Source: a virus
Virus record (IMG/VR): IMGVR_UViG_3300033827_000015
Location: 1-25,489 of that record
Direction: 5' to 3' (one strand)
DNA: 25,489 nt
The notes beneath the pieces were generated by a model, which saw only the letters and a list, made by a program, of their open reading frames with translations, had not been told where the DNA came from and did not search any database. Positions within the stretch are counted from its first letter, which is position 1, and every line of letters begins with the position of its first letter. The position numbers and the translations under genes were made by a program. Shown here piece by piece: positions 3,001-25,489 of this stretch.

Positions 3001-5410
3001 GTTCAACCAAGCCGTGGCGGAATACGTCGAACAACACCCTGAGCTTCGTAAACCCGCCCCGGAGAAGGACGGCGTGGCCATTCCCGACTGGGCCGCTGTC
3101 GATCGCGCCGCGCTCGCCGCGCGCACAAAGGAATTAGACGCCGCCGGGGAAGGCAGCGACTCCGACCTCGGGCAGCAATACCTCAGTCACCGGAGCCTTA
3201 GCGGCCCCGAGGATTATACCCACGCAAAACTGTTCAAAGATATCCAGGACGCCTATGATGTGGGCCTTAGACCCGTTAGCAATAACCCAGGCGATTCGCT
3301 GCGCCTGCTTACCGCCTCCATGGGCCAGTCGGGAATGGGGGCAAGGCTTGAGGCGGAGTACCGCAAAACAGGCGGGGAGATTTCGACTAACAACAATGGC
3401 GAGCCCATTGATCCCGTCACGTTCAAACGCATTCCCAGTGGCAAGATGATGGAAGACCCCGATAAGCCGGGTGAACAAGTCCCCATGACGATGCCGGCTA
3501 TTGACAGAAACAGCGGCGACTGGGTGAAACAGGGCGACTTGTGGTATCGCAACGCCAACCACGAGCTTGTACACAGGGGTTATACCTGGATGACAAAGGA
3601 GGTCGCTGCCAGCGTTGACAACTACCGGTCCAAATCTATACGCGCGGATAAAGACTTTGGCCCGGCGTACAACGCGTTCATGCGATTCGGCCAGATGCTC
3701 AGCCAGGGGCAGTTGATGGGATTTTTCCACGTCGGGTTCATGTCCGGCGCCAGCTACACGTCCAACCTCGGCCACGTCATGGGCGATCTTTACAAGATGG
3801 GGTATGACAAGGCGCACGGCAATACCCCCCGTGTGACGCTGGCCGGCATTAAGGATGCTGCAGTGCATCTCCTGGCGTCTCCGGTGAACGACATCCGGCA
3901 GGGGACGAAGTTGGTGGACGCCCGTTACCATCCCAGGGACCCCGACCTGTTCAAGGTGAACGACGACGACAATATCACCGAGCGTGTTCACAGCTTTACC
4001 GACCCCAAGGACCAGGAAACGATGTTACTGGCGGGGGTGGTGAAGGTAGGGGAGCTTGCGGGATGGCGGCATAAAATGGACCCGGCGCTACGGACGCACG
4101 GTGGTGAGAAATTCATGGACGCCTGGTGGAGCGGCGACAAATCCGCCATGGTGATGAACTCCCTGCCGGCGTTTACCGAAGCCGTAGCCGCGCCCACTAT
4201 GGGGTATGTAGTGCCGCGTATGAAAGCCGGGCAGGTGTACGAAAAGCTCGCCCGCGTCATTCGCGACAACCCCGGTAAGACAGCGAAGGAGTTACAGCCG
4301 CTCGCCGTGCGCGCCTACAATACTATCGAGGCGTTAATGGGCCAGGTGGACTACACGCGGCTGGGAATGCGCAACTGGGTGAAAAACCTGATACAACTCT
4401 TCATCAGAGCGCCGGGATGGACGGGGGGCACAGGGTCGTACTTCGGCGGGGCGCTGGTAGATACGATCAAACTCCTGCATGAATGGCAGCGTACGGGGAA
4501 GGCGCCGGCTGAGATCCCCGACCGCGTAATGGGCACGTTCGCGCTGCTGGCGGGGGCGGCGGTGTTAAACGGCGCCGCTACTTACGCCTTTACCGGGCAA
4601 CCGCCAAAAGACATGGACTACTGGGCGTTTCGCACGGGGGATAAGGACGAGTACGGCCGCGATGAGCGCATGATGTTCCCGATGTACACCAAAGACCTCA
4701 TGTCCTGGGAGCAGCACCCCGGCGCCACCGCTCTGGGTAAAATGCACCCTATGCTCTCAGCTATCGCGCAGGCGATTTACAACAAGGACTATTACGGCAC
4801 GCAAATCATGGAGCGCGGGTCCGGGTTCATATCACAACTAAGCGACCTTGGTAAGTTCGGCATCAGGCAATTCGAGCCGTTCGGCGTGCAGGGGCTGATG
4901 AAGGTGGCGGAGCGCAGCGGGGGCCTGGAGTATACGGCGCCGCAAAGACTGCTGGCGCCCATGGTGGGGATCATGCCGGCGCCGTCACTGTACAATAAGA
5001 CGCCGGCGGAACGGCTGATGACGGAAATGGGGGCGGAGGAGCGGCCGTCCGGCACCATGACCAAGGCGCAGCGCGAACACTTCGACCTGCTGCATCAAAT
5101 CCGCCGTGACTTCATGGTGGGGAACACGACGGAGGCGGAAGCGCGGATGCAGGGGGCGGTGCAGCAAGGGGTTATCAATCGCCGTGAGATTGGCGATCTG
5201 CGCAAAATGTCAACGCAGACGCCGGCGAGCTACGCCTTCAAAAGACTCAACGCGGATGATGCGCTGCGCGTATGGGAGGTTATGGATGACGAGGAACGGC
5301 GCGTGGCGCTAAAGGAGATGACGATGAAGATGATATCGCTTATCAAGAACGCCAGTCCGCAGAAAAGAAACGAGTTGCTGCCGAAGTTCAAGGCGGCGCT
5401 GGGGAGGTAG
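2..5410 (+). CDS. Giant phage polyvalent-type protein, 5' end cut by window edge
   Basis: The reading frame is open from the left edge, so the true start is outside the window; residue numbers here count from the GTG at 5. About residues 202-376 hold a block typical of large phage polyvalent proteins (YREMLLTLP at 202, QSDWHQ at 273, then an APFKTTWPMLAMKR segment from 346). A low-complexity Ala/Val/Pro linker near 618-645 is followed by HEAYH at 670-674, an HExxH zincin-like metallopeptidase signature. The C-terminal third is helical, with a hydrophobic stretch near 1508-1531. Polyvalent proteins are known in phages and conjugative elements and are thought to be delivered with the DNA; protease activity and injection are inference. 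It is the only complete plus-strand phage gene-like frame and converges on the polymerase gene with 13 bases between stops. Confidence 0.85.
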   Translation, partial: RVDRGDRGQMHPDVIDEAEKHALPTFLKLRDEYKGDPRVKFTIVDNDDDAKAPAIASPELEERLARTGWKEEGKRYVASGTTGPAGEGTLPAPRYSMTTAPTDAPAPQWYSQLRSVIDAKLPSSMPVNDLRTALKSWAQKGDYKAEELKWSGVDEWLAGQTGKVTKRRLMEFMRANQLEVKDVMYGPPAFGGLTTPGGIPGTYREMLLTLPEARPNAEDILLRDGEINARNKQDIAQSYLSSHWPDTINVVAHIRMDDRIDSQGRKVLHIAEVQSDWHQAAAALRTQEIRRLIADGMSVEEAQKETPQDFGYKKPEEGMSSDGWEDLQYDDDWLARWIHNSNAPPDAPFKTTWPMLAMKRMLRYAAENGYDGVSWDTGQTQADRYDLSKQIGRVRFTHTSGGAGAAPGEVGPGTLKAWDLDGRRVIDAYISDPARIKDYVGQEVAQRLVDQEGIHRRISAGMGEYERELTGLELKVGGEWHKRLYDERIPQELNKYVKKWGARVGTANIRAEQPWEVDTATASSDIDSRALTATVPFLPITDAMRESVMTRGQPLFSQTTTGTGAPTGAPTWTADHFRSAFPGQDVTTTPDGKFNITLNNGKVIVADPAARIILNPETLPAAGTVPAAGTVPAAVPAVPAVPTVPAGSWENFGYGGLIRLTEHSTTDTLPHEAYHAAEDLSNLTPADIAAARAKYGDAESRADAYAKWLSEGRAPGEGFFSRIWQAMMRLRDALFGPRAETGFEKVASGRAWQPVDMDAAAVTDAAINAKGGVMAAIENGDAPMRYSIRTPATDANDALPKDKRELPWVADANAALRPFTAKMSAAFKEIAPLFTNFVRGIQLAVAPGAAGGKYTEAADIFKGAHGARERATQTAEESIRPLRKIFQKMGVGATGVKAAMPFMDEQGQLTNPGPAYMVWANNGRPSLAGTPFEHLAPKFEAAYKLQVTAIDGMLKFLKESGKPLTVMRDDPDNPGKLIPEPITSSADYFPDILTKSSRRAFNQAVAEYVEQHPELRKPAPEKDGVAIPDWAAVDRAALAARTKELDAAGEGSDSDLGQQYLSHRSLSGPEDYTHAKLFKDIQDAYDVGLRPVSNNPGDSLRLLTASMGQSGMGARLEAEYRKTGGEISTNNNGEPIDPVTFKRIPSGKMMEDPDKPGEQVPMTMPAIDRNSGDWVKQGDLWYRNANHELVHRGYTWMTKEVAASVDNYRSKSIRADKDFGPAYNAFMRFGQMLSQGQLMGFFHVGFMSGASYTSNLGHVMGDLYKMGYDKAHGNTPRVTLAGIKDAAVHLLASPVNDIRQGTKLVDARYHPRDPDLFKVNDDDNITERVHSFTDPKDQETMLLAGVVKVGELAGWRHKMDPALRTHGGEKFMDAWWSGDKSAMVMNSLPAFTEAVAAPTMGYVVPRMKAGQVYEKLARVIRDNPGKTAKELQPLAVRAYNTIEALMGQVDYTRLGMRNWVKNLIQLFIRAPGWTGGTGSYFGGALVDTIKLLHEWQRTGKAPAEIPDRVMGTFALLAGAAVLNGAATYAFTGQPPKDMDYWAFRTGDKDEYGRDERMMFPMYTKDLMSWEQHPGATALGKMHPMLSAIAQAIYNKDYYGTQIMERGSGFISQLSDLGKFGIRQFEPFGVQGLMKVAERSGGLEYTAPQRLLAPMVGIMPAPSLYNKTPAERLMTEMGAEERPSGTMTKAQREHFDLLHQIRRDFMVGNTTEAEARMQGAVQQGVINRREIGDLRKMSTQTPASYAFKRLNADDALRVWEVMDDEERRVALKEMTMKMISLIKNASPQKRNELLPKFKAALGR
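1858..1939 (+). repeat. Tandem GTCCCC-rich linker repeat
   Basis: Two adjacent 18-base copies (1862-1879 and 1880-1897) are followed by several 9-base GCCGTCCCC units. They encode an Ala/Val/Pro-rich flexible linker between the N-terminal block and the HExxH region of the giant protein. Such runs can change in copy number by slippage; that is inference. Confidence 0.8.
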
Positions 5411-5423
5411 ATAGGAGCTGGCC

Positions 5424-8081
5424 TCACGCCGTCCCAGGATACGCCTGCATGCTCCCCCAGCGCCGCCCCACCTTGGCATCTACCTTGACGGGGATACTCA
5501 ACTTCACCGCCGTCTCCATAATATGCAGCAGCAGCGGCACCAGCGTCTCCAAGTATTCCGTGCTGCACTCGAACTCCAACGAATCATGAATCTGAATAAG
5601 CGGCTGAAACACCACACCCTGCCGCTGCCATTCCCGGTACACCGGCACCAGCTCCCCCATCGCCCGTTTTATTATTCCCTGCGCCCCGGACTGTATGGGG
5701 TGATTACCGGCTTCCCTCAACGCCTCCTCCCGCAGCCACTTGTTCCCCGACTTCGCGCCGGGTATCCATCTCCTTCTACCAAATATATCCTCTACCCACC
5801 CATACCTCTTAGCGTGGTCATGCGTAGCATCCATAAATGTCCTTACGCCTGGGAACAATCTAAAGTATTCTTTTCTAAAGTCATCACATTGCCGCGCAGT
5901 CCAATTAATCCCCATAGTAGCAAGAGCAGACCTCAAGCCCTCCGATTGCATACCATACGCTAGCCCGAAATTAAGTGTCTTGGCGCACCTGCGCTGCCAA
6001 CCCTTCAACTCGCTCATAGGTACGCCAAAGGCATCGGCCGCCGTCTTCTTATGCAAATCCAGGCCTTCTCTAAAGATGGATAGCATCCTGCTATCCTGTG
6101 ACGCGTGCGCCAACACTCTTAATTCGATCTGTGAATAATCCGCGCTCACCAATAGGCAGCCATCCTCGGCCATATACCCGTCTCGTACCCGCTTACCCTC
6201 CTCGGAGCGCACCGGCTGCGCCATCAGATTTGGCGACGACGACGATAGTCTCCCCGTGCTCGTCCTCGTTATCCTGAATGTGGTGTGCAGACGGTTGGCG
6301 GCGTCCGCCATCTGCGGGATAGGCCGGGCGTATGTCCCGTTGAGCTTGACATACGATCTGTAATCCTGCACCAGCCGTATAACTTCCACCTTTCTTTCAC
6401 CTATGGCGGCGGGCATCTCGGAGAGCCGCGACAGTATTTTGTTGTCAGTCCCGCCCCCGCCCCCGCCCCCGCCCCTGCCCCCGCCCCCGCCCCGGCCGCC
6501 GAGATCGAGTTTGTCCTTATCATACAACAACGCCCCCACCTGCGGCGGGGAGGCGGGATTGAAGTAGTCCAGCGCTACGCCCATGCCCCGCAACTTTCTC
6601 AACAGCTCATCCAAAACAGCGTCCGCCTTTCCCTGCAAATACGCGCTAAGGTCGCGGAAATGCTGCGGGTCGATGCGTATGCCCTTTATCATCATGTCGC
6701 TCACCATGGGAATTACCGCCATGTCCGCCGCGAAGGCGTCTTCAAGACCGGCGGCTACGATCATATCCCACAGTACAGGCCAGACACGGAGCGTGGCGTC
6801 CGCGTCCCGAGCGCTGTAACGGATGGCGGCGGCGCGGTCGATGTCGCTCAAATCCCCTGCCGGCATCTCACCTATGGCATCCTCCACCATCCCGCGCCCC
6901 TCCTCCACGTCAATATTCAACCATCTCTGCCTTGGGTTCGCATCCTTTGTCTCCGCATCCTTTAGTATCCGCAGTATCTTCTTTGTAATCGACTGCGGTT
7001 TTTTGACATGGGGTTTGCCCTTGACCCAGAGGAAAACGTGCTCAGGGGCGGGGAAGGGGAGCATGGAGGCTATTGCGAGGTATTCCATGGCTTTGCTGCG
7101 AGTGGCCGGAGCAACCATATCCGCGTATGAAATCATAGTCATATTACAATAGCGGTAGGCAAGGGACTTCAACCCTTGAGCCTCGGACTGCAGCAAATAA
7201 GCCGCGATCATCGAATCCACCACCCTGGCGGGGCGGATACCGGCTTGATCCAGGACGGGGCCGTCAAATAAATAGTTATGGAAAAGAGTGAGGACTGCGG
7301 GTGAGGCTAAATGCCGCGCCAGAATGGACAGCGTCTCAGGCTGGTCGTGCATTATCACGCGCGCCGTGCCTGGGGATACTGAAAACGACAGGCACCAGAA
7401 TTTCCCGGCTTTCGTTTCAGTGTCCACGGCGACTAGAGTGGATTCCTTTAAATACGCGGGGATGCTCGAGGCGCCGGCGGTGTAGTCTTCCTTTCCCGCC
7501 CAGGTATCCTCTACACGGCGGATAGGACGTTTCCCGCTGATAATCTCCTTTACCGCGCGGAAATCAGCATGCACCAGCAGCATCAAAGCGGGGTTGTGAA
7601 GGCCGGCGGCGGGGTGGTAGACAGGGATGACGATACGCCCGTCGGCCAGCGGATATGGCAAACCGTGAACGTCACTCATATCCACGTCGCCAAGGAAGCG
7701 GCGCGTGGCGATCCTGCCCATGGCGATGATAAAGCGCGGGTCAACGGCGGCGATGTCCATGTCCAGCCATATGCCGCAGTTGGCGATCTCCTCCGGCGCA
7801 GGATCGCGGTCGCCGCCACTTTTTCCTCTCCCCGGCCAGCAGCGGCAAATGTTCGAAATGTAAACCGAGCACCGTGGCATGCCGTTGCGGTTGAGCAGAT
7901 CGGTGAACTCCGTACCCGCAGGGGCGCGTTCGACAAACGGGTAGCCGGCGGCGTCCTCCATCCTGCCGGGGGCTTCGCCGACGAACATAGTAGAACAGGG
8001 TACGGGGCCGACGCCCCATATTATTTGATGTCTGCTCTTGACAAGTTCCGGACAGCGAATGCAATTATTTGCATGTTTCAC
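5424..8081 (-). CDS. Uracil-DNA glycosylase / 3'-5' exonuclease / family A DNA polymerase fusion
   Basis: A three-domain 885-aa replicative polymerase. Residues 1-180 resemble family 4/5 uracil-DNA glycosylases: cysteines 7, 10, 79/81 and 102 could bind a 4Fe-4S cluster, with GEAPG at 35-39 and HPAAGL at 156-161. Residues 210-440 are a DEDDy proofreading exonuclease (D220/E222, N269 to D273, Y422-x3-D426). Residues 455-885 are Pol I-like: motif A DYSQIELR at 648, motif B KTLNFGLAYG at 701-710, motif C HDSLE at 832. All key residues are present, so it is probably active. An unusual Gly/Arg run fills about 528-544 in the thumb. I chose the GTG at 8081 because it overlaps the stop of the preceding gene (GTGA); the frame also runs open to an upstream start at 8168. 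It is the last gene of the minus-strand block. Confidence 0.93.
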   Translation of the reverse strand: MKHANNCIRCPELVKSRHQIIWGVGPVPCSTMFVGEAPGRMEDAAGYPFVERAPAGTEFTDLLNRNGMPRCSVYISNICRCWPGRGKSGGDRDPAPEEIANCGIWLDMDIAAVDPRFIIAMGRIATRRFLGDVDMSDVHGLPYPLADGRIVIPVYHPAAGLHNPALMLLVHADFRAVKEIISGKRPIRRVEDTWAGKEDYTAGASSIPAYLKESTLVAVDTETKAGKFWCLSFSVSPGTARVIMHDQPETLSILARHLASPAVLTLFHNYLFDGPVLDQAGIRPARVVDSMIAAYLLQSEAQGLKSLAYRYCNMTMISYADMVAPATRSKAMEYLAIASMLPFPAPEHVFLWVKGKPHVKKPQSITKKILRILKDAETKDANPRQRWLNIDVEEGRGMVEDAIGEMPAGDLSDIDRAAAIRYSARDADATLRVWPVLWDMIVAAGLEDAFAADMAVIPMVSDMMIKGIRIDPQHFRDLSAYLQGKADAVLDELLRKLRGMGVALDYFNPASPPQVGALLYDKDKLDLGGRGGGGGRGGGGGGGGTDNKILSRLSEMPAAIGERKVEVIRLVQDYRSYVKLNGTYARPIPQMADAANRLHTTFRITRTSTGRLSSSSPNLMAQPVRSEEGKRVRDGYMAEDGCLLVSADYSQIELRVLAHASQDSRMLSIFREGLDLHKKTAADAFGVPMSELKGWQRRCAKTLNFGLAYGMQSEGLRSALATMGINWTARQCDDFRKEYFRLFPGVRTFMDATHDHAKRYGWVEDIFGRRRWIPGAKSGNKWLREEALREAGNHPIQSGAQGIIKRAMGELVPVYREWQRQGVVFQPLIQIHDSLEFECSTEYLETLVPLLLHIMETAVKLSIPVKVDAKVGRRWGSMQAYPGTA
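6450..6494 (-). repeat. GGGGGC hexamer repeat inside the polymerase gene (G-quadruplex-prone)
   Basis: On the coding strand this is a run of G4-G5 blocks separated by single C, CA or CC bases. It encodes the polyglycine loop of the polymerase thumb. More than four G-runs with one- or two-base spacers is a textbook G-quadruplex motif; folding is inference. Confidence 0.85.
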
Positions 8082-8275
8082 CGCACCCGGCCCCGCTGTC
8101 CGCCCCACGCCCCTTCTACTGTTACCAACCCGGCGATGTCGCGCACGCCCTTCCAGCAGGCGTGGCAAAGAAGGAGACTGCGGATACGATTAAGGCCGAT
8201 CTTCATGCCGGGGAGGCGGGCGGTAACGGCGTGGCCGCATACGCATACGCCCTTGCTGACGATCTTGGCGTTCAT
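8078..8275 (-). CDS. Small putative zinc-binding protein (65 aa)
   Basis: A 65-residue protein with a C11-x-C13-G-H15 group and a C37-H-A-C40 group, spaced like a single zinc site. The start is supported by a strong ribosome binding site (GGAGG, then TTTT, then ATG) that overlaps the end of the upstream ERCC4 nuclease gene. Its TGA stop overlaps the GTG of the polymerase gene by four bases, so the two are likely translationally coupled. Function unknown. Its position between a nuclease and the polymerase suggests a role in DNA metabolism, which is inference. Confidence 0.65.
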   Translation of the reverse strand: MNAKIVSKGVCVCGHAVTARLPGMKIGLNRIRSLLLCHACWKGVRDIAGLVTVEGAWGGQRGRVR

Positions 8276-8283
8276 AAAACCTC

Positions 8284-9021
8284 CTACTTTCCCCCGCTCA
8301 ATTCCTTCACAATAGTCCTGGCAATCCCCTTGCCAACGCCCTCCACCGCCATGAGTTCTTTTTCCCCCGCCATGACGAGTTCGAGTACGCTGGCATACTT
8401 AGCCGCAATCGCCTGCGCCCGTGTCCACCCGACATCCGTGATCTCCTTCGCCACCCGCGCCACTAACGGCGGGCGAAACAACTGCACGACAGGCGATGGC
8501 GCATGCGCGTAGGAGTAAAACGCCAAATGAGCGGCGTGGTCGCTCCAACCCTTCTGCCACCAATTATATATATCGGATAAGTACATGCCAGTCTCTTCTA
8601 TCGTACTTGTCCGCGCTACCAATATCCCGCAGTTCACAGCCATACTATGGAGGAAGTTGGTGATCGTGCGCAGCATATATCTGCGCCTGCCATGCCGCAT
8701 ATCCACCCACGCGCCGTGTTTGAACACCTGCAAAACACCATTGGCCGGGTTAGGCCTGAATATGCCCTCCACAATCAGAATCGTCCGCCAGTATGAAGGG
8801 AGCAGGCCGAGGAGCTGGGAACCAGACAGGCGGCCGCTGTCGATAGAACTCACGAGGTCGGAGATTGTCTTCCTTTCGCAACCGATCGCCGCCGGACCGT
8901 CAGGACCGTTACCCAGCCATGCGAAGTCACCGTATTCCAGGCGGGTGAGTTCAAACGGCGTGCCTTTGGGGATATGGGCCGCCAGCTCCCTGGAGCCGAC
9001 GCGGGAATCAATCAGCAGCAT
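8284..9021 (-). CDS. ERCC4-type structure-specific nuclease with helix-hairpin-helix tail
   Basis: A 245-aa protein of the XPF/ERCC4 nuclease family. The N-terminus shows D5, G31-D32 and the signature E49-R-K51-x3-D55, the metal-binding core of this fold. The C-terminus (about 205-243) carries a helix-hairpin-helix with the GVGKGIA loop, expected to bind branched DNA non-specifically. Eukaryotic XPF works on flaps and forks. Here the enzyme probably trims branched intermediates in phage replication or annealing-type recombination. It is followed 8 bases later by the small Zn protein. The start is the first ATG in frame; the ribosome site upstream is weak. Confidence 0.85.
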   Translation of the reverse strand: MLLIDSRVGSRELAAHIPKGTPFELTRLEYGDFAWLGNGPDGPAAIGCERKTISDLVSSIDSGRLSGSQLLGLLPSYWRTILIVEGIFRPNPANGVLQVFKHGAWVDMRHGRRRYMLRTITNFLHSMAVNCGILVARTSTIEETGMYLSDIYNWWQKGWSDHAAHLAFYSYAHAPSPVVQLFRPPLVARVAKEITDVGWTRAQAIAAKYASVLELVMAGEKELMAVEGVGKGIARTIVKELSGGK

Positions 9022-9048
9022 TGTCTATTCCGCCATCTCGCGGTTTTT

Positions 9049-9306
9049 TTAGCGCCGTGCGGTCAGCCATCGGACTAAATCCTCTCGCCGGTAACCTATA
9101 CTCCTGCCGTGGCCAACACGCTCCGGGCCGTTGCCTGCCGCGTCCAAATTTTGCATCGTTCCGCGTGAGTAAGGCAGGCCAAGGCTGGCGACATATTGCG
9201 CCCATTTGTGACGCCATATGATCGGCGGAGCCTCGGTTAGAAGGAAGCTCCAATCAATTCGGGGAACATTACTGGGAAGGCAGATTCTTGAATCGGGCTT
9301 TTTCAT
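9049..9306 (-). CDS. Excisionase/AlpA-like helix-turn-helix protein
   Basis: An 85-aa basic protein. Its second half reads SRGTMQNLDAAGNGPER, then GRSIGYRREDLVRWL, the usual layout of MerR/AlpA/excisionase-type winged helices: a helix-turn-helix, a GxGP turn, then a YRREDLxxWL wing. I chose the ATG at 9306 because GGGAG lies 7 bases upstream; the frame is open further, to 9369. It may regulate the neighbouring genes or act as a recombination directionality factor. No integrase is visible in the window, so this is open. It lies 27 bases before the ERCC4 gene. Confidence 0.72.
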   Translation of the reverse strand: MKKPDSRICLPSNVPRIDWSFLLTEAPPIIWRHKWAQYVASLGLPYSRGTMQNLDAAGNGPERVGHGRSIGYRREDLVRWLTARR

Positions 9307-15401: not shown

Positions 15402-16976
15402 CTACAGTTTCGGCAGCGGGTCCGGAATATCCCGGCATCTCGAATACGCCTGCATAAACCACTTTGGGGCCAGATAACCGTACCTGTAAAAGAACCAGGC
15501 GCAGTTGTCGTCAACAATCAGCGTCTGGCATTTATCACCCTCCGACCGGTTTGCGCGCCCGCTGGCCTGCACCAGATCCATCATAGCGACATACGCCCCG
15601 TAGTCTTCGTCGCCCTTGCACCTCGCCGCCACTAATTTGTCGCGCGTATCCGGGTAGGGGAGCTTACCGATAATTTGAAATTCACACTCCTGCATTGGAA
15701 AGTCCCAGCCTGTGCTGACACTGGGGCTCACCAGGACCGCCGGCGGAGCGTGCTTCCTACGCTTGAAATCCGCTATCCGCTGCTCGGTGTCCCTCTTGCC
15801 ATGGCTCATCATAATCGCCCGGTGCTCGCTGTCGCGCAGCAGCATATCGCGGCGGGCGTAGCTGACGGTATGGACAATGCCGTTCCTGTCCCGCCGCTGC
15901 CCTATAATTTGATCTATACGCCGTACCCACAGCCGCAGCCCTTCCGGCGATGTGCGGTGATTCATGCGAATGGTGGGGACGTGCCATACCCGGCGCCAGG
16001 GAATAGGAAATGAGTGCGGGTATTCCGTCAACACGGCGTCCTCGTCCCCTATACCCAATAACCCCAATGTTTTGCGGTTGAGCGTCGCCGACATCAACAC
16101 CACCCGCTCTACCCCGCGCCACAACACCCCCTCGGTGAACGTGCGCGGCCAGACCGGCCCCGCCCGCATTCCGCCCCCGCCGTCCTCCACTTCGACTATC
16201 CACCCCGCGCCGGCGTTTTCCAACTTCTCCAACGTCTGCGCCAACCCGCGCAGTTGCAGGTATTCACGCATCCTGCGAGGACTTCCACCCTCCTCATCCC
16301 TCAGCTCCTCCGCCATGAGGTCGGATACCGGCTTGAGCCTCGCCCCGGCCCCCTTTGCCCATGACGACCACTCTTCAATAGTATTAAGGCCGGACTTAGG
16401 CCACCAGCGATACAGCAGGCTGTCGCTTTTCCTCAGCTCTACCTGTAAATGGTTGCTGACCCCCGTGTCGATTCCATGCGCCTCGTCGGCGACCAGCAGG
16501 TCGAAACGGCCCAGTGGGACGCCGGCGGCCATCGCCGACTGCCAATAACTGTAATTTGTAACGACCATTTGAGCCGCCGCCGCCCGCCGCACAGCCCGCT
16601 GGTATTCACAGCGGCCGCGGTCGGGGCATGGCACGCCCGCCGCGCAGACGCCCTGGTCGCAATTAACGCCGGGAGAATTAATACAGCTATAGTTGTTGCG
16701 CCCGCGCACATCTACCATGCCGACGCTTGCAAAGTCGCGAAGGAGCTGGGTCTGCAAGCCTTTGCTCGATGTGAGATATAGCAGGCGTTTGCCGGAAATC
16801 AGCGCCGCCGCCACCGCGCATATCGACTTTCCCCCGCCCGTCGGCATCACCAGCCCTGTGAATCGCCGTTCGGCGTCCAGGATCTGGAGGATCGCGGCGG
16901 GTTGATGCTGCCGCCATTCCGTAAACCTGGCGGGGAGGGAAAAGGCTGCGGGAGGGGGGAGCGCGGACATGATCAT
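15402..16976 (-). CDS. XPD/DinG-type Fe-S DNA helicase
   Basis: A 524-aa superfamily 2 helicase. Walker A PTGGGKS is at 45-51. Five cysteines at 98, 106, 111, 117 and 123 sit where XPD and DinG carry the 4Fe-4S cluster. TNYSYW is at 140-145, DEAH at 164-167, MSATL in the second half, and motif VI QASGRANR at 470-477. It should unwind DNA 5' to 3' like its relatives and may act at forks or on recombination intermediates. The ATG overlaps the stop of the upstream gene (ATGA); a second ATG two codons later is also usable. A copy of its first 17 codons lies 573 bases upstream in the direct repeat. Confidence 0.92.
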   Translation of the reverse strand: MIMSALPPPAAFSLPARFTEWRQHQPAAILQILDAERRFTGLVMPTGGGKSICAVAAALISGKRLLYLTSSKGLQTQLLRDFASVGMVDVRGRNNYSCINSPGVNCDQGVCAAGVPCPDRGRCEYQRAVRRAAAAQMVVTNYSYWQSAMAAGVPLGRFDLLVADEAHGIDTGVSNHLQVELRKSDSLLYRWWPKSGLNTIEEWSSWAKGAGARLKPVSDLMAEELRDEEGGSPRRMREYLQLRGLAQTLEKLENAGAGWIVEVEDGGGGMRAGPVWPRTFTEGVLWRGVERVVLMSATLNRKTLGLLGIGDEDAVLTEYPHSFPIPWRRVWHVPTIRMNHRTSPEGLRLWVRRIDQIIGQRRDRNGIVHTVSYARRDMLLRDSEHRAIMMSHGKRDTEQRIADFKRRKHAPPAVLVSPSVSTGWDFPMQECEFQIIGKLPYPDTRDKLVAARCKGDEDYGAYVAMMDLVQASGRANRSEGDKCQTLIVDDNCAWFFYRYGYLAPKWFMQAYSRCRDIPDPLPKL

Positions 16977-17013
16977 ACCTTTAATCGTTCTCTGAGTTTA
17001 GCCACTGCGTAGT
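16926..17013. repeat. 88-bp direct repeat, copy 1
   Basis: Identical to 17499-17586. This copy spans the functional overlap between the end of the 172-codon-frame gene and the start of the helicase gene. Confidence 0.93.
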
Positions 17014-17498: not shown

Positions 17499-17586
17499 CC
17501 TGGCGGGGAGGGAAAAGGCTGCGGGAGGGGGGAGCGCGGACATGATCATACCTTTAATCGTTCTCTGAGTTTAGCCACTGCGTAGT
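17499..17586. repeat. 88-bp direct repeat, copy 2 (non-functional ends)
   Basis: A perfect second copy. Read on the minus strand it holds the last 13 codons of the downstream gene (YAVAKLRERLKV) and the first 17 codons of the helicase, both detached from their genes. The helicase-like start here runs into a stop after about 24 codons. Copy 2 meets the stop of the Cys-rich gene at 17586. Confidence 0.93.
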
Positions 17587-17831: not shown

Positions 17832-18107
17832 TCAACGTAGCCCGTAGGCCGGTTCAAACTTGACTTCTTCCGGGGCCGCATCTTTCTTAGCTATTGGTCG
17901 CAGCATGAGTTTTTCTATGGTGCTCCGCTCGACAAAGAAGGATTTGATTGTGTCCAAACCCGAAGTATGCCCTGAGTTGTCGTCGAGGGCGTTCATGGAC
18001 ACCTCGACCTCCCATACTTGGACATTATCTTCGTGCCATTGGCGAGGGTACTCATAGGTCTTGTTCGTGTCATCGGTGGTTACGAAAGTCTTCTTTTCTC
18101 GCGGCAT
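17832..18107 (-). CDS. Hypothetical phage protein (91 aa)
   Basis: Unrecognised. The ATG at 18107 shares one base with the upstream stop (TGATG), and GGAGGTGAAG serves as ribosome site. The longer frame to 18131 would use a start inside the upstream gene. The protein looks beta-rich (VQVWEVEVSMNALDD), then helical, with a short acidic-to-neutral tail. No motif is seen. Confidence 0.6.
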   Translation of the reverse strand: MPREKKTFVTTDDTNKTYEYPRQWHEDNVQVWEVEVSMNALDDNSGHTSGLDTIKSFFVERSTIEKLMLRPIAKKDAAPEEVKFEPAYGLR

Positions 18108-18307
18108 CACTTCACCTCCTCCATACACCAACAGATTTCTGAATCAATATCTACCGCCAGCCAAGGGAACCCGCTCAACGGATGATTTCCCTTAAGCTTT
18201 TCAATTTCATCGAAATTGTCGAACTGAACAATGTTTTCGTTGTCATCGACGATTGCAACGACATGGCCGTTGTTTTCTCGCAGATCTACCAAGGCTATAC
18301 TTGTCAT
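18107..18307 (-). CDS. Hypothetical phage protein directly after a G16 run (66 aa)
   Basis: Starts MTSIALVDLRENNGHV right after the G run, giving a compact protein with a beta-rich start and a DFDEIEKLKG-type helix (FDNFDEIEKLKG), ending ICWCMEEVK. Function unknown. The nearest AGGAGG is on the far side of the G run, about 17 bases from the ATG, which is too far for good initiation at this tract length. It may be made alone, when the tract is shorter, or fused to the preceding protein as the present sequence reads. Its stop overlaps the next ATG by one base. Confidence 0.55.
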   Translation of the reverse strand: MTSIALVDLRENNGHVVAIVDDNENIVQFDNFDEIEKLKGNHPLSGFPWLAVDIDSEICWCMEEVK

Positions 18308-18490
18308 CCCCCCCCCCCCCCCCACCTCCTCCTTGCTCCAAGTCTCCGGGCAAATTTTCCAAATCCGGCCACAAACCCTGCACCGGCCTTCAATGTATCC
18401 GCTAATCCGCCTCGGCTCGATCTTCACGATGCCGCCCATGATGCACAGGTCCTGACATGTACACTCCATCGTCTTTGTCATAGTCATCAC
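18107..18490 (-). CDS. Zn-binding phage protein read through a G16 tract into the next ORF
   Basis: As sequenced, one 127-codon frame joins two units. Residues 1-56 form a cysteine-rich domain (C10-x-C12, C16, C37-x2-C40, C47) that looks zinc-binding. Residues 57-61 are Gly from the G run. Residue 62 is the Met of the next protein. With one G fewer the first unit would end at a TGA overlapping that Met codon as ATGA, the joint used throughout this operon. The fusion is therefore probably either a tract-length error or a length-dependent switch. The start ATG overlaps the pyrophosphohydrolase-like stop by four bases. Confidence 0.5.
   Translation of the reverse strand: MMTMTKTMECTCQDLCIMGGIVKIEPRRISGYIEGRCRVCGRIWKICPETWSKEEVGGGGGMTSIALVDLRENNGHVVAIVDDNENIVQFDNFDEIEKLKGNHPLSGFPWLAVDIDSEICWCMEEVK
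18308..18323 (-). repeat. G16 homopolymer at a gene junction
   Basis: Sixteen consecutive G on the coding strand, lying between AGGAGG and an ATG. Runs of this length are prone to slippage in vivo and to error in sequencing. Confidence 0.9.
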
Positions 18491-18822
18491 TCTGCTCTCC
18501 CTTCCCCCTTCTCATCCATTTGCAGCCGGTCTATTTCGGCGGCTATCAGAGCACCGGCGATTGCCAACCCTTCTATTTTGTCGGGACGCCCGTGCTCAAC
18601 GATATAATGCATCCAGGCCATATCCTCGAGGGGAGCATAGTAGCCAAGAAATTCGTCAACCGTTATGCTCGCCGAGTCCACTTCATTTAATGCCCTCAAA
18701 ATCAGTGCGGCAGCGACGACGAGAAGCTCTTGTTTGGTGTGCCCTTCATCATGTTTGAGTGTGTAACCTTTATTCTTTAACTGCCGCTTCCGTTCTGCGG
18801 CTATCAACTCGGCTCCGGTCAT
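18487..18822 (-). CDS. dNTP pyrophosphohydrolase-like phage protein (111 aa)
   Basis: Starts MTGAELIAAERKRQ and ends GALIAAEIDRLQMDEK. This ERxRQ ... HDEGH ... AAEIDRLQ layout is that of a common small phage family often annotated as dATP/dGTP diphosphohydrolase-like (DUF550-like). Members of related folds clean or reshape the nucleotide pool. The catalytic metal ligands would be the acidic residues of the helical core, which I cannot assign with certainty. GGAGGAG stands 5 bases before the ATG at 18822. The frame is open up to 18930, but that part overlaps the repeat array. It is the first gene of the long downstream chain. Confidence 0.65.
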   Translation of the reverse strand: MTGAELIAAERKRQLKNKGYTLKHDEGHTKQELLVVAAALILRALNEVDSASITVDEFLGYYAPLEDMAWMHYIVEHGRPDKIEGLAIAGALIAAEIDRLQMDEKGEGRAE

Positions 18823-18911
18823 TTTGGCTCCTCCGGTCCCCAGTACCGCCGACCTCACGGCCTCATACTCAATAAACATATTCCCCCCTCCCCCGGAAAT
18901 GTGTGTAACCC

Positions 18912-19079
18912 GCGTAATCTCCATGTTCATTTGTAACCCTTATGCCTCATCGTAACCCTTACTACCCATGTTACCCCCACGCTAATTTGTAACCCTTACA
19001 GCTCATCATAACCCTTATTACCCGCGTAATCTTCATGTTAATTTGTAACCCTTACAGCGCATCATAACCCTTATTACCC
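18912..19079 (-). repeat. Three tandem 56-bp iteron-like repeats
   Basis: Units are 19024-19079, 18968-19023 and 18912-18967, slightly diverged. On the minus strand each contains two copies of TAAGGGTTAC or TAAGGGTTAT, giving six in all. The array fills the gap between the 226-aa gene and the pyrophosphohydrolase-like gene. The 397-bp gap (18823-19219) holds no convincing gene. A replication origin with iterons, or an operator array, are both possible. Confidence 0.88.
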
Positions 19080-19081
19080 CT

Positions 19082-19111
19082 GTTACCCCACTAAAACGTA
19101 TTTGGGGTAAC
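19082..19111. repeat. Inverted repeat beside the 56-bp array
   Basis: GTTACCCC and GGGGTAAC are perfect 8-bp arms around a 14-base AT-rich spacer, using the same GGGTTAC-like word as the array. A further 10-bp palindrome lies at 19173-19182 (ACCCGCGGGT), next to an AT-rich stretch at 19183-19215. Together these look like protein-binding and melting sites. Confidence 0.7.
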
Positions 19112-19219
19112 ATGGGTTACTAAGGTTACGTCGTGTTGATTTTATTGAGGAAATCGGGATTGTAACCCTGTAACCCGCGGGTATATTAAATACTATATGA
19201 TATAATAGGGGTGTATTCA

Positions 19220-19900
19220 TTATATTACCTCCCACACATTTTCAACGAACTCCCCGTCGTCGTCGTCTTTCGGCGCGATCTCCTGAAATTTTCTCTGCAT
19301 GAACTCGTTTTTGTATTCCACATCGACAGTGAAGTTTTTAATAATCGCCAATATCTTCTGCTGCGTCGCCGCCCCGATTATGGGTGAGTGGACGACGCCA
19401 GCTAATATCGCAATCTGCCGCACATGCCGCAACGAAAACCCCGCCATGGCCGCGAACCTGTCAGCCTTGACCACCACGCCTTCCAATAATCTCACCGGCC
19501 AGGTTCTTTTCTGGCTGCTTTTGAACTCGACCGCCCAATCCCTGGCCACCGCTTCCTTGTCCTCGCGTAAACACCCCTTGGCCAGCAACACCTTTCCCCG
19601 CAGGCTGTTAATGCGTTCCACCGCCGTGCCCAGTCTCAGGGTAAGGTTGTTGACGCCGATGTCGATGGCGCAGGTGGCGACTTTGGAGGCGGGGATGTGG
19701 AGATAGCTGGAAAGGCCGTTGATAACGAAGGGGATGTTATGGTAGATGCTTTTGAACATATATGTTTTGTAGTCCTCATCCGCCCCCAGGTTGTAATGCC
19801 GGACTACCTCTTCAATGGGGGTGATGATGTAGGTTGCCGCCGCATCCGGATCGAAATTGATGAATCCGCCGCCGCTGTCGCCGTTGCCTATTTGCTCCAT
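19220..19900 (-). CDS. Unknown protein upstream of the repeat array (226 aa)
   Basis: I do not recognise a family. The N-terminus is Gly-rich then mixed; the middle has helices around SSYLHIPASKVATCAIDIGV and RLGTAVERINSLRGKVLL. A possible helix-turn-helix is around FSLRHVRQIAILAGV (about residues 155-169), and the C-terminus is acidic (DDDDGEF). GAGGAG precedes the ATG. It is the gene immediately before the 56-bp repeats, so a DNA-binding initiator or regulator acting on that array is an attractive guess, but only a guess. Confidence 0.6.
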   Translation of the reverse strand: MEQIGNGDSGGGFINFDPDAAATYIITPIEEVVRHYNLGADEDYKTYMFKSIYHNIPFVINGLSSYLHIPASKVATCAIDIGVNNLTLRLGTAVERINSLRGKVLLAKGCLREDKEAVARDWAVEFKSSQKRTWPVRLLEGVVVKADRFAAMAGFSLRHVRQIAILAGVVHSPIIGAATQQKILAIIKNFTVDVEYKNEFMQRKFQEIAPKDDDDGEFVENVWEVI

Positions 19901-21227: not shown

Positions 21228-21286
21228 TTCTGTTCTGCCTCTTTTTTCTTCCTGCGGTTCTCTGCGCTACGTTTCCCGTGAATACT

Positions 21287-21346
21287 CCCCTGACTAAAGT
21301 CAGAGGCTTCTAGGGATTTTCACCCACCGCTTGTATCCCCAAGCGG
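21287..21346 (-). other. Double hairpin resembling an IS605 right end / omega RNA tail, upstream of tnpB
   Basis: On the minus strand, hairpin 1 (21346-21327) has a perfect 7-bp stem CCGCTTG/CAAGCGG. Hairpin 2 (21306-21287) has an 8-bp stem CCTCTGAC/GTCAGGGG with one G-T pair and a TTTA loop. The context AAGCC-hairpin-GGAGTA is the same as at the right end of the complete IS. Right ends normally follow tnpB; here it precedes one. It is either the scar of an older element or a guide-RNA-like transcript placed 5' of its nuclease. Confidence 0.6.
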
Positions 21347-21382
21347 AGAATAAGTCTGCTCTCTGTGTTGTGGAGGGTATCG

Positions 21383-21412
21383 AGGATACCACGGGGCAGG
21401 GTGCGCTGTCAA
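21383..21412 (-). promoter_or_regulatory. Sigma-70-type promoter
   Basis: On the minus strand TTGACA (21412-21407) is followed after 18 bases by TATCCT (21388-21383). It is the best consensus match I see in the window. It would transcribe the double hairpin, the stand-alone tnpB and possibly the 226-aa gene beyond. Confidence 0.55.
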
Positions 21413-21508
21413 TTCACAAATTATGGATATAATTAACTTTTTGTGTCAAATTATTGACGGGTACACCCGCCGGATGGCCGGCGGGCGCAATGCGCGACTC
21501 CGCCACCA

Positions 21509-21718
21509 CTACCTCTTCCGCTTCCCCGTCCTCCGCGTACTCAGCCGCATATTAGCCGCGACGAACGCAGCAACATCATCATCGTTATACACTACTCGGC
21601 TGCCCAGCTTGATGTACGCGGGGCCACTCCCGACCCCGCGCCACTTCTGCAGGGTTTTGACGGACAAGCCCAGCAGTACGGCCAGTTCCCGTTCATTGTA
21701 ACACTTAATCGTCGGCAT
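21509..21718 (-). CDS. Excisionase-type helix-turn-helix protein (69 aa)
   Basis: Reads NERELAVLLGLSVKTLQKWR, then GSGPAYIKLGSRVVYNDDDVAAFV: a helix-turn-helix followed by the short GxGPxY...GxxVxY wing typical of HTH_17/AlpA/excisionase proteins. The tail is Arg/Lys-rich. The ATG shares one base with the preceding stop (TGATG), and GGAGGGG is well placed. It likely regulates transcription or excision. No integrase is visible nearby. It is followed by the promoter region. Confidence 0.8.
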   Translation of the reverse strand: MPTIKCYNERELAVLLGLSVKTLQKWRGVGSGPAYIKLGSRVVYNDDDVAAFVAANMRLSTRRTGKRKR

Positions 21719-24842: not shown

Positions 24843-25489
24843 TTAATTAATAAGACCTACCGTCTTTAAATCCACTACACCGACCCGTTCACAACGGTGA
24901 ACCCGGAACTTACCATCGGTTGCTGTAGGTATGGCGGCGATATCGGCTGCTGTAAATTCCATTATTAAAATGGCATAATCTTCTTGCCACTCTTTAATAC
25001 ACCAATCCAGGGTAGCCAGGTTAATCCCTCTCCCACACTGTTCTCCTTCATTGATATCAGCATCGGAAACTGAGAATGTGTGGTTTTTCAGGTAGTTAAT
25101 TCCACCATTATAAGGGCCTTCCCCCTTTGAGTTTATTAGTTTATAGGCTCTAATCTTACTTGGTTGATCTAGTAGTAAGAGTAAAGGGGTACAGAGATAT
25201 TTGTTTATTCCTTTAGCCCCTCTCAGGTTAGCCCCTCTCAGGTTAGCCCCTCTCAGGTCAGCCCCTCTCAGGTTAGCCCCTCCCAGGTTAGCCCCTCCCA
25301 GGTCAGCCCCTCTCAGGTCAGCCCCTCCCAGGTCAGCCTCTCTCAGGTTAGCCCCTCTCAGGTCAGCCCCTCTCAGGTTAGCCCCTCCCAGGTTAGCCTC
25401 TCTCAGGTTAGCCCCTCTCAGGTTAGCCCCTCCCAGGTCAGCCCCTCCCAGGTTAGCCTCTCTCAGGTTAGCCCATCTCAGGTTAGCCC
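24843..25489 (-). CDS. Pentapeptide-repeat protein, 5' end beyond the window
   Basis: The frame enters from the right edge with 18 pentapeptides of the type A(N/D)L(R/G)G, which fold into a right-handed quadrilateral beta-helix. A C-terminal domain of about 125 residues follows ([17 protein letters not shown], then [21 protein letters not shown], then [21 protein letters not shown]). This C-terminal domain recurs in phage pentapeptide proteins. Some pentapeptide proteins mimic DNA and bind gyrase; most are uncharacterised, so no function is assigned. Codons are AT-richer than downstream genes. The stop TAA lies at 24843. Confidence 0.85.
25218..25487 (-). repeat. 18 tandem 15-bp units encoding pentapeptides
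   Basis: Eighteen near-identical 15-base units (GGGGCTAACCTGAGA-like on the minus strand). They differ only at a few positions, giving N/D, R/G and G/E changes. Such DNA identity suggests recent expansion or active unequal recombination. The array continues to the window edge. Confidence 0.92.

Follow-up and report, generated by a model that had tools for sequence, protein, structure and literature searches.

Phage P4 carries two separate sites in one genome, ori1 and crr, which share iterons, and it encodes the alpha primase-helicase. In the origins of SaPI Rep and SCCmec Cch2, the helicase gene is immediately followed by the iterons (PMC7581432), and the mapped origin of plasmid pRN1 consists of a stem-loop of ~100 bp on the 3′-side of the replication/initiator gene (PMC4234260). 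The locus described here lies in a stretch of viral DNA of 25,489 nucleotides, which was analysed at its full length and is referred to as the window. Like the SaPI Rep and SCCmec Cch2 origins, it comprises short repeated words and inverted repeats in non-coding DNA 3′ of a gene; however, their gene encodes the initiator helicase, whereas the gene at this locus encodes an orphan protein of 226 aa. Similarly, a stem-loop of ~100 bp on the 3′-side of a gene is shared with pRN1, this gene again being the orphan. The layout is also reminiscent of the inverted GAGGCAAAC pairs with a 9-bp spacing on the 3′-side of the BPP-1 primase, although the word is another one and GTAACC is absent from BPP-1. 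In contrast to pRN1 and, by prediction, to BIP-1/BPP-1, an adjacent primase-helicase is absent from this locus, and the stem-loop element is present in two copies separated by 14 kb. In this respect the phage resembles P4 with its two separate iteron-sharing sites; yet P4 has the alpha primase-helicase, and the two sites of the present phage share a nearly identical core of ~88 bp.

The features of the locus are compiled in Table 1. The exact word TAACCCTTA, which reads TAAGGGTTA on the minus strand, was found at positions 18934, 18953, 18990, 19009, 19046, and 19065, the base following TAAGGGTTA being C in four and T in two of the six cases, and no exact copy of TAACCCTTA was detected in the rest of the window outside 18934-19073. 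Within 300 bp we counted six TAACCCTTA words versus at most one in shuffles of the window, and nine GTAACC/GGTTAC words versus at most three. The autocorrelation of the array shows peaks at lags of 56, 19, 9, and 37, indicating a decayed 9-bp step beneath the 56-bp units, the same step as in the array at the second copy of the stem-loop element. In the pairs of the stem-loop the words are spaced by 9 and 8 bp, and within the array the distances are 19, 28, and 37 bp. The whole repeat layout, comprising the units, the inverted repeat, the palindrome, and the AT-rich flank, spans ~18904-19197 and far exceeds that seen in shuffles. The initial annotation had described three 56-bp units with six words, which Tandem Repeats Finder, exact matches, and shuffles confirm; the inverted repeat of the array word, the 10-bp palindrome, and the AT-rich stretch that it had placed beside these units were likewise recovered.

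Table 1. Positions of the repeats and of the adjoining genes in the window.
Feature	Position	Strand	Remarks
Iteron-like array, 2.9 x 56-bp unit	18929..19089	-	Six TAAGGGTTA words with spacings of 19 and 37 bp; Tandem Repeats Finder: period 56, 2.9 copies, score 217, same span
Outlying copy TGTAACCCGCG	18904..18914	+	Same sequence again at 19169-19179
95-bp stem-loop element GGGTTAC(3)GGTTAC...GTAACC(2)GTAACCC	19103..19197		Inverted repeat of the array word
Smaller second inverted repeat	19065..19128		26-bp arms, 81% complementary, 12 bp apart; connects the hairpin with the final unit of the array
10-bp palindrome ACCCGCGGGT	19173..19182		At the stem edge
AT-rich flank	19180..19230		A+T content as high as 78% over 50 bp; candidate site of unwinding
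Next gene downstream	18487..18879	-	~130 aa, provided that it starts at 18879; hits to phage families without an assigned function, phrog_6628 among them
Orphan gene of 226 aa, terminating at the element	19220..19900	-	AGGAG ribosome-binding site before the ATG

When folded as DNA, the 95-bp element surpasses 200 of 200 shuffles (z -4.3). Its words occur in both orientations and adjoin AT-rich DNA. The same phage is represented by a longer contig of 74,885 bp, termed G001, in which positions 65758-40271 correspond to positions 1-25489 of the window, with a single difference in the length of a C-run near 18323. This contig harbors the second copy of the element at 32493-32586, in the same genome orientation as the first. 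The ~88-bp cores of the two copies differ at two bases, and their flanks are unrelated. Both copies are intergenic and located between genes of one direction, and the second one is adjoined by a 9-bp array of ~12 GGGTAACAC units as well as by a serine recombinase gene.

The array is positioned directly 3′ of the 226-aa gene and 5′ of a replication operon, which encodes a DEAD-type helicase (524 aa), a Sak4-like annealing protein, an ERCC4 nuclease, and a family-A DNA polymerase. The open reading frame of 147 aa at the other end of the array probably starts at 18879 rather than at 18930, a GGGGGAGGGGGG ribosome-binding site preceding position 18879, and because of this probable start the non-coding gap extends over ~18880-19219 (~340 bp). 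It was initially taken for the largest gene-free gap of the window but is only among the largest, since 21228-21717 and an IS-disrupted region at ~12.5-13.6 kb are longer. Matches to the SU10 portal and adaptor indicate that other genes of the phage recall SU10-like phages. Searching the viral contigs with the helicase and the polymerase for relatives retrieved only the same phage, and a search for a host link via the IS200-type transposase yielded only distant matches in Verrucomicrobia.

Several further features of this genome were observed. The C-run comprises ~15 residues at 18310-18325 inside an open reading frame (18107-18490) and is one base longer in the window than in G001; the tract is either slippery and phase-variable or was misread in sequencing. 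An exact direct repeat of 88 bp (16926-17013 and 17499-17586) flanks a gene of 172 aa, and the pair looks like the result of a duplication or an insertion of this gene. An identical sequence of 75 bp, probably an end of the IS200/IS605 type, is found at 21278-21352 of the window and at 4687-4761 of G001, in each case beside a TnpB gene. Moreover, the phage carries carbon-metabolism genes for a transaldolase, a class II aldolase, and an RpiB-type isomerase (G001 5639-9199; L008) and also encodes a PfkB-type kinase domain. A pentapeptide-repeat protein is encoded by a 15-bp tandem DNA repeat (window 24843-25489, G001 40024-40917); the end of the window inside this gene is probably an assembly break.

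The gene adjoining the array had been described as unrecognised, and in line with this we obtained no relative of its product in any collection searched, that is, nothing usable in Pfam, PHROGs, NCBIfam, PDB, or the phage, viral, and genome searches. When compared with helicase profiles, the protein matched neither. With regard to the possible HTH mentioned in the initial annotation, a single HTH-like pattern is present at residues 145-164, within a basic segment (residues 131-205, pI 10.7), whereas neither a homolog nor a confident fold was obtained. The pattern is the sole match among 50 phage proteins and occurs in 0.6% of shuffles; because it was written after reading the sequence, it serves as a lead only. 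The structure prediction that had been suggested as a check gave an AlphaFold model with a pLDDT of 37, computed without relatives, which is worthless.

We then surveyed the distribution of the word. In the viral contigs scanned, GGTTAC pairs of opposed orientation occur at at least 120 loci, and at least 75 of these contain seven or more sites in 400 bp. Among the matches listed, 38 of these 75 clusters have a primase-helicase of the VapE, DUF5906 (NrS-1-like), or DUF927 type within 1 kb, and in all 38 cases with a primase-helicase, again among the matches listed, the cluster is located on the 3′-side of the gene. With a hexamer of equal base composition as the control, we found such a primase-helicase at none of 26 clusters. 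With regard to the remaining clusters, seven of the eight adjacent proteins tested carry D5_N, DUF5906, PriCT_2, NrS-1 HBD, or AAA_25 domains.

A second test was independent of the word: 75 VapE loci were picked by the protein alone, and the 300 bp 3′ of the gene were inspected. A word occurring at least five times and in both orientations was present 3′ of VapE in 74 of the 75 loci versus 15 of 375 control windows, the independent cases being fewer than 75 because the loci are partly related. The spacing between words of the same orientation is 8-10 bp in 220 of 267 instances at the VapE loci, and the repeated word differs between the respective phages (GGAACC, TGTACC, GTAACC, and others). 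We also observed that the repeated words 3′ of VapE-like genes, placed every 9-10 bp in both orientations at nearly every locus, often surround a TATATA stretch (viral contigs L226-L305). In the literature searched by word, we found no account of GTAACC/GGTTAC as an origin motif; the sole match to GGTTAC was a PCR primer.

Since many phages display this word and layout on the 3′-side of their primase-helicase genes, the array is most like an iteron/stem-loop origin. We therefore tentatively propose, as the likeliest of the readings considered, that the array and the 95-bp stem-loop could together constitute a replication-origin-type site of the phage. At such a site, a protein specific for the GGGTTAC words would attach to them, both in the direct array and in the opposed pairs; once bound, it would bend or open the AT-rich and stem-loop DNA alongside and would load the replication enzymes, the phage encoding its own family-A DNA polymerase and helicase. 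We infer binding by a phage protein, the start of replication, and the 226-aa protein as the binder alike. Accounting for the initial proposal of an iteron origin with its initiator, the origin half is supported by the primase-helicase survey and by pRN1, while the initiator half is unproven.

Several observations count against an origin. The turn in GC-skew that had been predicted at 18.9-19.2 kb is absent; the nearest one is located at ~30.3 kb, near the second copy, and coincides with a change in gene direction. Moreover, a second site is present 14 kb off, whereas paired sites lie in one locus in 21 of 22 comparable phages, and the words of the array are mostly spaced by 19 and 37 bp and hence sparser than the typical 9-10 bp. 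Neither tblastn nor Pfam or profile searches revealed a primase-helicase of the VapE, DUF5906, or DUF927 type in the 75-kb contig G001, which is possibly incomplete. As the searches for this cognate gene were negative, we do not file the array in the family of primase-helicase origins.

The region 5′ of the next gene is taken up by the array, the adjacent protein combines an HTH-like pattern with a basic segment, and a weak promoter-like match on the minus strand (19166-19139) lies within the element. These features would suit an operator array, through which a phage regulator, be it the 226-aa protein or a different one, would control the minus-strand early operon from ~18880. We consider this rather unlikely, as the promoter-like matches barely exceed those in shuffles (4 vs. 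1.5) and as the 226-aa gene, the array, and the next gene follow one another in one direction, which is not the arrangement of a divergent regulator. Nor would an operator explain why the word is associated with primase-helicases.

Arrays of the same word are not confined to viral contigs, since some chromosomes of Verrucomicrobia and Omnitrophota hold many intergenic, inverted 9-bp GGTTAC arrays; in one such genome, double words number 218 compared to 3 for the control. These arrays consist of 9-bp GGTTACATG-type units and often follow straight after a stop codon (L322-L335). They resemble the phage element in the word, the opposed arms, and the 9-bp step, but they are dispersed in the chromosomes, and no link to replication genes was seen. 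Given the near-identical core and the unrelated flanks of its two copies, the phage element might likewise be a host-type dispersed intergenic repeat, in which case an inverted 9-bp array, mobile or slipped, would recently have inserted at both places and would play no part in phage replication. This explanation is unlikely: the triple word is absent in 144 of 145 sampled genomes from the phylum of one array-bearer, which may not be that of the host, and neither the separate amplified array of 56-bp units nor the site beside the replication operon would be explained.

A variant of the origin reading, which we judge to be distinctly unlikely, is that replication proceeds from two paired stem-loop/iteron sites, with a small initiator, the 226-aa protein, replacing the primase-helicase.

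A distance of ~110 bp separates the serine recombinase gene (PF00239) from the array at the second copy, and the copies of the element are in direct orientation. A recombination or resolution site of this phage enzyme would thus allow excision of 14 kb or multimer resolution. Such a function is very improbable, and the reading is weak because the related recombinase loci examined are devoid of such an array nearby; the recombinase was rejected as the owner of the array on the same grounds. In addition, a comparison of the contig of the window with G001 showed no rearranged junction. Finally, a structured RNA in the transcript, e.g., an antitermination or attenuation element, is hardly credible: read on the strand of the adjoining genes, each copy folds well as RNA (z -3.0 and -4.4), but there is no Rfam match, a terminator-like tail is absent, and the 56-bp array would be left unexplained.

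Returning to the tentative assignment as a replication-origin-type site, the recurrence of a word every 9-10 bp, in both orientations and on the 3′-side of a primase-helicase gene, offers a simple rule for finding origins in uncharacterised phages. If the array and the stem-loop of the present phage are indeed an origin, the iteron/stem-loop layout would here be separated from the usual primase-helicase, and a different protein must read it.
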